From NCBI GenBank assembly GCA_015061465.1, contig SUWN01000001.1, positions 1 through 64,000 of the forward strand: DNA of 64,000 bases. Reading direction: 5' to 3'. Of this stretch, positions 18,417-22,379 are shown in pieces (position 1 is the first letter of the stretch; the number at the start of each line of letters is the position of its first letter). The DNA comes from Treponema bryantii (GTDB lineage Bacteria; Spirochaetota; Spirochaetia; Treponematales; Treponemataceae). The notes beneath the pieces were generated by a model. The model was not told the origin of the DNA and ran no database searches. It saw only the letters and a program-made list of their open reading frames with translations. The translations under genes and the position numbers were made by a program.

Positions 18417-19304
18417 CTATTCTTTGTGAAAAGGTGAAAGAATATCAATTATTTCTTGGTTTTTGAAAAGAACTGCATATTCGTAAGCGGACATTCCCAT
18501 AGAATCTTTTATATCTGGATTTGCTCCTTTTTTTACAAGTAAAGAACAAATATGAGGTTTGTTTTCGCCAACTGCTAAAATGAGATTTGTTTGACCGTCT
18601 TTGTTGATTGTGTTTACATCTGCTCCATGTTCTATAAATATAGAAACATTTTTTTCATTTCCGCGTAGAATTGCATCCATAAGTGCTGTGTAACCGCGGT
18701 CTTTTGAAATTGCATTTATATCAGCGCCTAAATCTAACAATTTATTAATCATTTTTGTACAATTATTTCTAGCTGCAACATTAAGCATTGGAGTTCCATT
18801 TGGGTCAGATGAATTTATATCGATTCCAGCTTTTATAAATCGGTCAAAATCTTTTTGATTTTCTTCTTCAATACATAAAGCAAAACAACTTGGACAAACA
18901 GGAATTCCTTTTTCTAAAAGTTCGTTTTGAGCTTGTAGTTTTTCATCTGCTTGAATTAATTTTTCTTGATTTGTTTCTAAATACTTATTTAGTTCATCAA
19001 CAGATGAAATATGTTCCACCTTTGAATTAGAAAAACTACAATTTAATAAATCAATATTCGAAACAATTTGAATATTTTTTGCTTGCAAAAATCCTGCAAC
19101 AGAAAAAATTTTAAGTAAATCATTTTTTTCTAAATTTTTTTCATCATTTACAAAAATAATACACAGTGGAATATTAGAATTATTTTGTACTTGTTCATAA
19201 AATTTTTTAGACGATAGTTTTAAAAAAATTGAATTAAAATCTTTGTTGATTTTTTCTGTAGATAAAACATCTTCTTGCTCATCTGAAATTATTAATAGAT
19301 TCAT
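18417..19304 (-). CDS. Ankyrin-repeat protein with uncharacterised N-terminal domain
   Basis: Ankyrin motifs DPNGTPMLNVAARNNCTKMINKLLDLGADINAIS, GYTALMDAILRGNEKNVSIFIEHGADVNT. Confidence 0.85.
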   Translation of the reverse strand: MNLLIISDEQEDVLSTEKINKDFNSIFLKLSSKKFYEQVQNNSNIPLCIIFVNDEKNLEKNDLLKIFSVAGFLQAKNIQIVSNIDLLNCSFSNSKVEHISSVDELNKYLETNQEKLIQADEKLQAQNELLEKGIPVCPSCFALCIEEENQKDFDRFIKAGIDINSSDPNGTPMLNVAARNNCTKMINKLLDLGADINAISKDRGYTALMDAILRGNEKNVSIFIEHGADVNTINKDGQTNLILAVGENKPHICSLLVKKGANPDIKDSMGMSAYEYAVLFKNQEIIDILSPFHKE

Positions 19305-19358: not shown

Positions 19359-20690
19359 TTACATCTTAAAACCAATTGAATGATTATTATATTTAAACGA
19401 GTTTCTTATCTTATCAGAAATTGAATTTGTTGTTATTAAATCAATATAAGACTTACCATTGTATTCTTTGTATGTATAGTTTGCAATTTGAGATAAAATA
19501 GCCGGAATATTTCTTGGCTGATTATTGCAACATTCAGAAATTAATTCTCTTGTTGAATCAGGAATATATTCGGGAAGCAAGTCCTTATTAAAATTATTAT
19601 CCTCAATCCATTGTTCATATATATTATCTAGTACAACAGTTTTTATTTCTTTAGGTGTATATTGCCTTATCTTCAATTTGACTGGAAATCTGCTTAATAT
19701 ATAGTCAGGAATTTTTGATATATCATTTGCAATTGCAATATAATTTATATGAGAAGCATCAACTTCCACTGCAAAAAAATTATCTTTGAAGTGTTTCGCG
19801 TTGTTTTTTTCAAGTAATTCTGCAAAAACTCCTGAAAAATCTGAATCTTCTCTGTTTGAAAAATTTGCCTTGTCGATTTCGTCTAAAATAATCAAAGGAT
19901 TCATGATAGGACCTTTACCTCTGGAAAACATAGATTTTATAATACAACCACAATCACTTTTGCTAAAACCTTTGTCATTTCCTGTAAGTGTAAAATTGAC
20001 ACTGCCTGATCCCATTGAATTACGAGAATAAAATTCATAAAGTTCACATAAACTGATAATTAATGATGATTTACCACAACCTGCATCGCCATATATTAAA
20101 ATATTTGGAAAATTAATTGATTTATCCTTTTTTATTGATAATAAGTTTTTTTTAGGTACAATACGTTCTTTTAATGAATCAAAATTTGGATATTTTTCAA
20201 AAAGTTCATTTAATTTATTTATAATTTTTGTGTTGTATTCAATATAAAAAGGCTTACCTTCTAATTTTTCTTTTATTTTATAAATTTTTGAATAATTTTC
20301 ATCTTTTGAATCTAACTTATTATATAAAGTTTCAAAATCACGTTTGTTATATGCTGTAAAAATATTATTATCACTATTATTTTCTTGATTTTTTTTTTGA
20401 ATAATTTCACCAAGCCAAAAGGAAGAAATCTTTTTAGAAAATGAATAAACTTCAGTTAAGTTTTCTATTTCACTTGTTGGTGTGTTATTAATGATTCCAT
20501 TAAAAACTAGTAGAATTATTTCATCTGTATAGTTCAAAATGTTTTTTGGCGAAAGTTTTGGAGAGAGAGAAATCACTGTGTTTTTATAAATTGTATATTT
20601 TACAGTTTCTTCTGATGAAGAACGTTTTTCAATCATTGCAGAATCAGAATCTAATGATAAAAGTGAAAATGCAAATTTTTTTGTTTCCAT
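19359..20690 (-). CDS. Orphan AAA+ ATPase (Lon-like AAA module, no protease domain)
   Basis: Walker A GDAGCGKSSL, Walker B LIILDEIDKA, sensor-1/Arg region YIAIANDISKIPDYILSRFPVKL, sensor-2-like NNQPRNIPAIL. Confidence 0.8.
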   Translation of the reverse strand: METKKFAFSLLSLDSDSAMIEKRSSSEETVKYTIYKNTVISLSPKLSPKNILNYTDEIILLVFNGIINNTPTSEIENLTEVYSFSKKISSFWLGEIIQKKNQENNSDNNIFTAYNKRDFETLYNKLDSKDENYSKIYKIKEKLEGKPFYIEYNTKIINKLNELFEKYPNFDSLKERIVPKKNLLSIKKDKSINFPNILIYGDAGCGKSSLIISLCELYEFYSRNSMGSGSVNFTLTGNDKGFSKSDCGCIIKSMFSRGKGPIMNPLIILDEIDKANFSNREDSDFSGVFAELLEKNNAKHFKDNFFAVEVDASHINYIAIANDISKIPDYILSRFPVKLKIRQYTPKEIKTVVLDNIYEQWIEDNNFNKDLLPEYIPDSTRELISECCNNQPRNIPAILSQIANYTYKEYNGKSYIDLITTNSISDKIRNSFKYNNHSIGFKM

Positions 20691-20703
20691 AAATGACTCC
20701 CTT

Positions 20704-21009
20704 AAAAAGTCAATGAGAAAATTTCAATTTTCGATTTGACTTTTTACGCTGTTTTGCAACAAAGTGAAAAACAGCAATATATATTTAGTTTGCAACGCAA
20801 AATAGTAAAGATAAAAACTGGCGATATTTTTGGCAGTTTTTATCTCATCTCCTATAAAAAAGTCAATGAGTAAAACATCAGTTTTAGGAATTGACTTTTT
20901 ACGCTGTTTTGCAACAAAGTGAAAAACAGCAATATATATTTAGTTTGCAACGCAAACTAGTAAAGGTAAAAACTGGCGATATTTTAGGCAGTTTTTACCT
21001 TATCTCCTT
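20704..21009. repeat. Two tandem copies (period 153 bp) of a multi-hairpin unit upstream of the AAA+ gene
   Basis: Copy A from 20704, copy B from 20857. Stems AAAAAGTCAA/TTGACTTTTT, GCTGTTTT/AAAACAGC, AG(A/G)TAAAAACTG/CAGTTTTTA(T/C)CT. Confidence 0.9.
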
Positions 21010-21021
21010 TTTTACTAATTA

Positions 21022-21035
21022 AATAACGCGTTATT
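21022..21035. promoter_or_regulatory. 14-bp perfect palindrome AATAACGCGTTATT (possible operator/recombinase site)
   Basis: Exact palindrome; AATAACGCGTTA recurs at 21081-21092. Confidence 0.5.
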
Positions 21036-21080
21036 ATTTGTTAAATATACAGTATCTCTAAAATTTTATTTTGTCAATAA

Positions 21081-21095
21081 AATAACGCGTTAATT
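21081..21095. promoter_or_regulatory. Second AATAACGCGTTA site, inside larger TCAATAAAAT...ATTTTATTGA arms
   Basis: 59 bp from the equivalent core at 21022-21035. Confidence 0.5.
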
Positions 21096-21132
21096 TTATT
21101 GATTTTTTATTAAAAGATTATATAATTGAATT

Positions 21133-22227
21133 ATGAATGAAATTTATATAGACAAATTAATTGAAAAAATTTTTAATGATTTCCCAGAACTTTCTTCGAT
21201 AGATGTAAAACAAAAAAATTATTTTTTTGAAAAATTGAATGAAAGGTTTGATTATAAAAAAGAAAATAAATCTCTTTCCGTTGATGAAATCATAAAGAAG
21301 TATGTTAAAAATAAGGTTAAAACTGAATATCAAAAACCAACTGAAATTGTTCTTTTATATTTTAATAACTACTTACAAAAACAAAATTGTAATCTTTTAG
21401 AAATAAACGAAGAAATTGTTCAAAAGTTTATTAAAGAAGAATATGAACGTGGAAAAAAACAAGGTTCGATAAGAGTAAGATTTTCTAGAATAAATCAGTT
21501 TTATAAGTATTTAGAAAATGAAAAATTTATACTTCAAAATCAAAATCCTTTTAATAAAATAAAATTAGCAGAAATTAATAATAATCAAATTACAAAAGCA
21601 ATAATTCCAACGGAAGATGAAATTATTAAAATCTTAAATAATTTATCTCTTAAAGAAAAAACTTTTTTAGCAATTGTTGCTACAAAAGGGTATAATACAA
21701 AAGAATTTTACGAGTTGAGTTTCAATTCAACGTTATTGGAAACTAAAGAAACAAAAGGAAAAATAACTGTTACATATTGTTGGATAAATGATGATTTATG
21801 GAATTATGAATCCAACAGGGATAAAGAAATAATTTATTCAAATGATGGTTTTGCTAATAATAAGAATTTTTATGAATATATTTCAACTCCTAAATGGTAT
21901 AATGAAATTTTGACTGATTTTTGGAACGAATATATAGGGGATAATAAATTCGAATGTGATGATTGTGAAATTCATTATTCAGAACTCTATTATATAAACC
22001 ACCATATAGATTTAGGAGTTTATGAGCAGAAAATAAATGAAACGATAAAAAAAATGTATAAAGAAAAGGAATTGAATTATTTGTACAAAATTAAAGATTT
22101 TCGTTTATATGCTATAAAAAATATTTATAAAAATACAAAGAATATTCGACTTATTCAAAAATTACTAAATCATACAACTTCAAATACAACTCGTCGCTTT
22201 TTACAAAATGCAGGAATAGAGCTTTAA
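21133..22227 (+). CDS. Tyrosine recombinase/integrase-like protein, catalytic residues not fully conserved
   Basis: SAM-like N-terminal fold (EEIVQKFIKEEYERGKKQGSIRVRFSRINQFYKYLE); C-terminal KDFRLYAIKNIYKNTKNIRLIQKLLNHTTSNTTRRFLQ resembles HxxR...LGH...TTxxY. Confidence 0.65.
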   Translation: MNEIYIDKLIEKIFNDFPELSSIDVKQKNYFFEKLNERFDYKKENKSLSVDEIIKKYVKNKVKTEYQKPTEIVLLYFNNYLQKQNCNLLEINEEIVQKFIKEEYERGKKQGSIRVRFSRINQFYKYLENEKFILQNQNPFNKIKLAEINNNQITKAIIPTEDEIIKILNNLSLKEKTFLAIVATKGYNTKEFYELSFNSTLLETKETKGKITVTYCWINDDLWNYESNRDKEIIYSNDGFANNKNFYEYISTPKWYNEILTDFWNEYIGDNKFECDDCEIHYSELYYINHHIDLGVYEQKINETIKKMYKEKELNYLYKIKDFRLYAIKNIYKNTKNIRLIQKLLNHTTSNTTRRFLQNAGIEL

Positions 22228-22272
22228 TGTGAAACAAAAAAAATTGATAGAATTTATAAAAAGTATTTAAAC

Positions 22273-22302
22273 AAAAAAAAGACTTCCGAAACTTCGGAAG
22301 TC
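22273..22302 (-). terminator. Terminator of tRNA-Phe
   Basis: Reverse strand GACTTCCGAA-gt-TTCGGAAGTC followed by TTTTTTTT. Confidence 0.9.
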
Positions 22303-22306
22303 TTCG

Positions 22307-22379
22307 TGCCACAGGTTGGAATCGAACCAACGACATACGGATTTTCAGTCCGGCGCTCTACCAACTGAGCTACTGCGGC
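22307..22379 (-). tRNA. tRNA-Phe (anticodon GAA)
   Basis: Reverse strand GCCGCAGTAGCTCAGTTGGTAGAGCGCCGGACTGAAAATCCGTATGTCGTTGGTTCGATTCCAACCTGTGGCA; cloverleaf pairs, anticodon loop CTGAAAA. Confidence 0.97.

Follow-up and report, generated by a model that had tools for sequence, protein, structure and literature searches.

An array of palindromic repeats before an AAA+ ATPase gene of Treponema bryantii probably belongs to a mobile DNA element that lands on Shine-Dalgarno-like purine runs

The window analyzed here, that is, the whole stretch of 64,000 nucleotides at positions 1 to 64,000 of Treponema bryantii contig SUWN01000001.1, contains at 20697-21008 on the minus strand an array of two tandem units of 153-155 bp each, with four hairpins (H1 to H4) per unit, followed by an AAA+ ATPase gene. 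In the order of the minus strand, the parts are:

21004..21008, minus strand: upstream copy of the Shine-Dalgarno-like target AGGAG, directly 5' of the array, the presumed original target (the element-free genome G086 has AAAGAAAGGAGACACAAAAATG here)
20963..21001, minus strand: H1 of unit 1, AAGGTAAAAACTG ... CAGTTTTTACCTT
20941..20959, minus strand: H2 of unit 1, TAGTTTGC-GTT-GCAAACTA
20903..20930, minus strand: H3 of unit 1, GCTGTTTT ... AAAACAGC
20857..20900, minus strand: H4 of unit 1, AAAAAGTCAA ... TTGACTTTTT, with the inner stem TAAAAC-TGAT-GTTTTA
20849..20853, minus strand: AGGAG separating unit 1 and unit 2
20809..20845, minus strand: H1 of unit 2, AGATAAAAACTG ... CAGTTTTTATCT
20787..20803, minus strand: H2 of unit 2
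20748..20775, minus strand: H3 of unit 2
20704..20745, minus strand: H4 of unit 2
20697..20701, minus strand: GGGAG closing the 3' end of the array, used as Shine-Dalgarno sequence by the AAA+ gene (distance to the ATG, 6 bases)
19359..20690, minus strand: AAA+ ATPase gene, the downstream host gene, outside the element

Each unit thus runs from an AGGAG target copy through H1 (a long stem with a loop resembling CTGCCTAAAATATCGCCAG), H2, an A/T-rich linker, H3 and H4 (with a nested stem) to a Shine-Dalgarno sequence. The preliminary description had reported two tandem copies of about 153 bp, and every stem that it quoted was located letter for letter: AAAAAGTCAA at 20704 and 20857, TTGACTTTTT at 20736 and 20891, GCTGTTTT at 20748 and 20903, AAAACAGC at 20768 and 20923, the stem arms AGATAAAAACTG/CAGTTTTTATCT at 20809/20834 and AGGTAAAAACTG/CAGTTTTTACCT at 20964/20989, GAAAATTTCAATTTTC at 20717 and TAAAACATCAGTTTTA at 20871. 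The hairpin AGTTTGC-GTT-GCAAACT, our H2, was absent from that description. The spacing from unit to unit is 153 bp in the first part and 155 bp in the remainder, and the units are 94% identical across a 126-nt stretch. The GC content is 29-30% in the window units, at a length of about 153 bp, and 25-46% across all units.

AAGGGAG at the end of unit 2 stands six bases ahead of the AAA+ ATG. With the likely AAA+ promoter on one side and the start codon on the other, the element would belong to the AAA+ leader. The AAA+ gene and a divergent tyrosine recombinase gene (together 19359-22379) adjoin a tRNA-Phe gene; the pair is a rare accessory module, and neither protein has a PADLOC match. Downstream of the AAA+ gene, an ankyrin-repeat protein is encoded at 18417-19304, the ankyrin part of which alone is covered by the PADLOC match PDC-M72A. 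Two AATAACGCGTTA palindromes (21021-21035 and 21081-21095) flank the likely AAA+/recombinase promoter, with the same layout in G086, and look like a putative operator. The H2 hairpin occurs alone (TTTGCGTTGCAAA or one mismatch) at 672-684 and 2657-2669 of the window and at the loci L022, L024, L031 and L038, in leaders lacking the other element parts, facing the gene and sometimes directly after promoter-like sequence; such solitary copies may be either relics or an independent element.

A BLAST search of the same genome yielded 16 matches of the element, comprising full units, tandem pairs and internally deleted relics. All of these copies have the same direction relative to the following gene, towards its start, and the element precedes many unrelated genes. 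Short, non-coding, mostly A+T-rich and dispersed in intergenic regions, it has these traits in common with elements of the MITE type. In G000 the similarity of the units is genome-specific, 72% within the genome and 56% between genomes. At L117, L119 and L133-L136 the H2 loop is enlarged by about 75 nt, which marks a subfamily. A search of phage and plasmid collections with the window element gave no match in either, which rules against a phage or plasmid origin.

Both window units match the Rfam family TD-1 over its full length (model positions 1-120, E 4e-7 and 2e-6), and the opposite strand of their H3-H2-H1 part matches the family TD-2:

20851..20971, minus strand: TD-1 (RF03155) match, unit 1, 48.7 bits (gathering score 64.5)
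20698..20814, minus strand: TD-1 (RF03155) match, unit 2, 45.7 bits (gathering score 64.5)
20908..21003, plus strand: TD-2 (RF03162) match, opposite strand of H3-H2-H1 of unit 1, 33.9 bits (gathering score 48.7)
20753..20848, plus strand: TD-2 (RF03162) match, opposite strand of H3-H2-H1 of unit 2, 27.8 bits (gathering score 48.7)

All four matches stay below the gathering scores, and none of the copies in the own genome exceeds the TD-1 cut-off. A model made from own-type units also finds loci above that cut-off, which links the window-type units to them; the window element is a divergent form of TD-1 on the minus strand. Like it, TD-1 has the H2-H3-H4 fold with a Shine-Dalgarno sequence directly after H4, but the Rfam model covers little of H1 and lacks the 5' target copy, unlike the element as delimited here. 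The preliminary description had suggested a covariance-model search in Treponema genomes; TD-1 matches were found in 42 of the 118 genomes of the genus and in 101 of the 275 genomes of the family (12 of 21 genera), with none in 14 control genomes.

Of the TD-1 loci in other genera, the ten with the best scores all carry a TD-2 match at the same place on the opposite strand, in nine cases above the cut-off. Therefore TD-1, typed as cis-regulatory, and TD-2, typed as an sRNA, overlap in one element. The three hairpins of TD-2 are the reverse complement of H3-H2-H1, while typical high scorers of TD-2 are separate, shorter, three-hairpin repeats, unlike the window element. High-scoring TD-2 copies (L224-L231), which are sometimes tandem, number 60-72 per genome in the genus g16 and 147 to at least 150 in each of two genomes of g15; the high copy numbers of standard TD-2 cover six genomes of these two other genera. 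Such a copy number (60 to at least 150) is that of a repeat, unlike an sRNA gene. We tentatively consider a broader interpretation, which is possible rather than probable: TD-1 and TD-2 would represent the two strands of elements in a large superfamily of hairpin DNA, and not RNA families, spread among Treponema-type spirochetes by an enzyme that reads folded hairpins and landing on ribosome-binding sites, and an insertion would add a structured leader while leaving the gene intact.

One reading offered in the preliminary description was a leader RNA of the AAA+ gene. In its extended form, it takes the array for a tandem cis-regulatory RNA acting on the AAA+ gene and on a regulon of unrelated genes, at the level of either translation or transcription. 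It agrees with the sense orientation, with the Shine-Dalgarno sequence directly after H4 in most copies, with the strong conservation of the structure and of loop sequences, and with the Rfam type of TD-1. The position of the array within the likely AAA+ leader also fits it, but comparison of genomes and the occurrence of the same element before many unrelated genes do not. The divergent AAA+/recombinase pair is conserved in two genomes, G086 and G102, the AAA+ leaders of which are short and without the element (a search of these loci with model R1 found none); a recombinase homolog also occurs in G026. G086 has a TTGACA box and a pair of AACGCGTTA palindromes at the same places, after which the leader continues directly with AAAGAAAGGAGACACAAAAATG, while in the window the two units sit between AAAAAAGGAG and AAGGGAGTCATTTATG. 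With the same gene pair occurring elsewhere without it, the element does not qualify as a conserved AAA+ leader. Similarly, one unit precedes mraY in the own genome and none precedes the other 29 orthologues read (1/30).

Gain or loss of units between close genomes argues in the same direction, and the cis-regulatory type of TD-1 is a poor match to such a pattern. At several places whole units distinguish G049 from G109, two genomes whose flanks there are mostly identical at 90-98% (83% at the lowest). Two locus pairs, L116/L182 and L111/L179 (G049/G109 here and below), show a clean absence with the target present once; at L117/L183 there is one unit fewer, the unit lying beside an older H4 remnant; and at L107/L178, L112/L180 and L114/L181 the size of the array has changed (contraction), L107/L178 being counted only in this class because G109 keeps at least one unit there. 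The existence of element-free sites in relatives is another trait of MITE-type elements, although absences in single relatives can be losses, and some could result from deletion between flanking direct repeats. An extra stretch of 1.5 kb at L174 of G109 was considered as an autonomous version of the element and rejected; one of its frames resembles, as judged by eye, a lipoprotein of the formylglycine-generating-enzyme type.

Shuffled sequences are predicted to fold far less well than the element (z = -8.8 for the element as DNA and -7.0 as RNA; none of 100 shuffles was as good). The preliminary description had noted paired changes between the two copies, and these proved to be part of a general pattern: in alignment A2, comprising 21 units from the own and other genomes, compensatory double changes occur at 31 of 44 pairs. 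Pairing is kept in these further homologs, with 95.2% of the pair cells paired versus 78.6% in shuffled alignments and at most 54.5% with slid partners, the percentage being somewhat favourable since the alignment is model-fitted and leans towards structure. The covariation score is 0.454, versus 0.152 for shuffled alignments and 0.07-0.10 for slid partners.

An RNA kept on one strand is expected to tolerate G-U pairs far more than A-C mismatches. Among 3055 pair cells of 71 units, 2871 are Watson-Crick, 48 are G-U (1.6%) and 30 are A-C (1.0%), a comparison that gains nothing from the model-fitted alignment, as the model counts G-U as a pair. Control tRNAs from the same loci have 8.6% G-U, in a small set (10) where the program's brackets may omit A-C mismatches by design. 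The almost purely Watson-Crick covariation suggests that DNA hairpins are constrained more than the sense-strand RNA, and DNA hairpins, or template-switching correction of imperfect palindromes, fit the pair counts better than an RNA of one strand. H3 alone shows some preference for G-U (12 G-U versus 3 A-C), which leaves room for a role at the RNA level. Thus the selection on structure proposed earlier, or an active maintenance of base pairing, is strongly supported by the covariation and the low G-U count, while the near-absence of G-U argues against a constraint acting purely on a leader or other non-coding RNA.

The flanks of the arrays carry a repeat. In 81 arrays the 20-base flanks share longer identical stretches than shuffled pairs do (5.91 vs 4.72, 0/2000), and the same holds for mixed genomes (6.19 vs 4.73, 0/3000), for G049 (5.14 vs 4.29, 4/3000) and for G109 (5.11 vs 4.36, 34/3000). 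In the mixed set and G049 the bases beyond the purine core also match between the flanks, so that more than a Shine-Dalgarno sequence is shared. Long repeats are found at L053 (AAGGAGCGAAAATG), L055 (TTAGGAGGAG) and L123 (TTTAATGAACG), and a clean target-site duplication, again as in MITE-type elements, is the AGGAGG of L116/L182; the repeats vary in length from 3 to 14, and many copies have none. Between the genomes G152 and G153 (L222/L223) the sequence that ends in the Shine-Dalgarno motif has changed jointly in its left and its right copy (GTTTTTATCGGAG vs GGTTTTATTGGAG), which resembles concerted evolution. At the ends of the element no inverted repeats beyond composition were seen, the similarity of the ends being 6.27 of 14 versus 6.29 for ends of other elements and 6.38 for shuffled letters.

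For fifty six of the 81 arrays an ORF begins no more than 35 nt further on, mostly at a distance of 10-16 nt, and eight of these arrays have a gene start on both sides; two lead only in the opposite way, and 23 have no nearby gene start on either side. The latter two groups indicate that position and direction of the element may depend on the target motif instead of the gene. The arrays without a gene start, the target repeated at both ends and the scarcity of G-U pairs add to the case against a cis-regulatory RNA, which we regard as unlikely, bearing in mind that mobility does not preclude the use of an element as a leader.

Cruciform protein-binding sites, the other proposal of the preliminary description, come closer to the evidence as far as hairpin or cruciform DNA is concerned; binding by the AAA+ protein or the recombinase is unsupported, close homologs of these proteins being rare and the repeat widespread. 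That the array serves as binding sites or cruciforms for one of these adjacent proteins could be argued from the adjoining recombinase gene, the DNA-type covariation and the precedent of integron attC, a hairpin recombination site of other tyrosine recombinases. It is nevertheless very improbable, given that recombinase homologs occur in 4 of the 118 genus genomes, as opposed to 42 with TD-1, that G086 and G102 have the gene pair with no element there, and that the attC core motifs GTTRRRY and RYYYAAC are absent from both strands of both units, which excludes an integron attC site.

As mobilisers, too, the neighbouring recombinase and the AAA+ protein were rejected as too rare. Another candidate was an element of the REP/RAYT type, mobilised by a Y1 transposase similar to those of IS200/IS605, which would cut beside the tetranucleotide GGAG. 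The hairpins do adjoin a GGAG-like motif, always with the same orientation of one strand relative to it, and form tandem arrays, but Y1_Tnp (PF01797), found in 25 of the 118 genomes, is absent from G000, and the genomes with a match do not include G042, G044, G049, G088, G108 or G109, which are rich in TD-1 copies. A RAYT/Y1 transposase was therefore rejected as the mobiliser, since it is lacking where copies are most numerous and does not follow copy number; with bases beyond the core repeated at both ends, unlike in IS200/IS605 insertion, this origin also seems highly improbable. No mobilising enzyme was found among the candidates considered, namely the one transposase family searched (Y1_Tnp profile), the recombinase and the AAA+ protein.

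We consider it probable that the array belongs to a mobile, array-forming palindromic DNA repeat that lands on Shine-Dalgarno-like purine runs, and prefer this to a conserved RNA switch. Each unit would be a copy of a non-coding palindromic repeat of about 150-165 bp of Treponema-type spirochetes that moves, or once moved, as DNA, presumably by active transposition rather than by gain and loss through recombination. It would insert at purine runs such as AGGAG, GGAGG and GGAAG, probably by a staggered cut, leaving a short target copy at both ends, so that the gene behind would keep its ribosome-binding site. Further units may be gained or lost at the repeated motif, yielding tandem arrays such as the pair in the window. 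The four hairpins would be kept as DNA hairpins, probably because the mobilising factor recognises them, the most likely mechanism being a protein that recognises the folded or extruded form. The added structured leader of 150-310 nt may alter AAA+ expression as a side effect.

Among described repeats, YPAL (RU-2) of Yersinia appears closest in behaviour, and BOX in extending leaders. YPAL, an intergenic repeat of about 168 bp, carries its inverted repeats internally instead of at the ends and has variable target duplications, 3-26 bp long (PMC2229807). The Treponema element resembles it in size, in the lack of terminal inverted repeats and in variable target duplications, a likeness in behaviour; A+T-richness is not a feature of YPAL, which inserts in regions of dyad symmetry, whereas the Treponema element targets purine runs at ribosome-binding sites. 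The BOX, RUP and SPRITE repeats of pneumococcus are likewise small interspersed repeats, strongly folded, by which the leaders of operons are lengthened, and BOX is modular, but BOX and RUP have, besides target duplications, terminal inverted repeats (PMC3049150), none of which were detected here.

If our interpretation is true, two curated RNA families, TD-1 and TD-2, need re-annotation as parts of one mobile repeat. More generally, reading perfect covariation as proof of a structured RNA is a trap, since hairpin DNA elements give the same signal if the hairpins matter as DNA or stay perfect through template switching; the ratio of G-U to A-C can help to separate a constraint on RNA from one on DNA hairpins. 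For the spirochetes, an element that lands on a Shine-Dalgarno sequence and leaves it working would be a simple way to rewire the translation of many genes.
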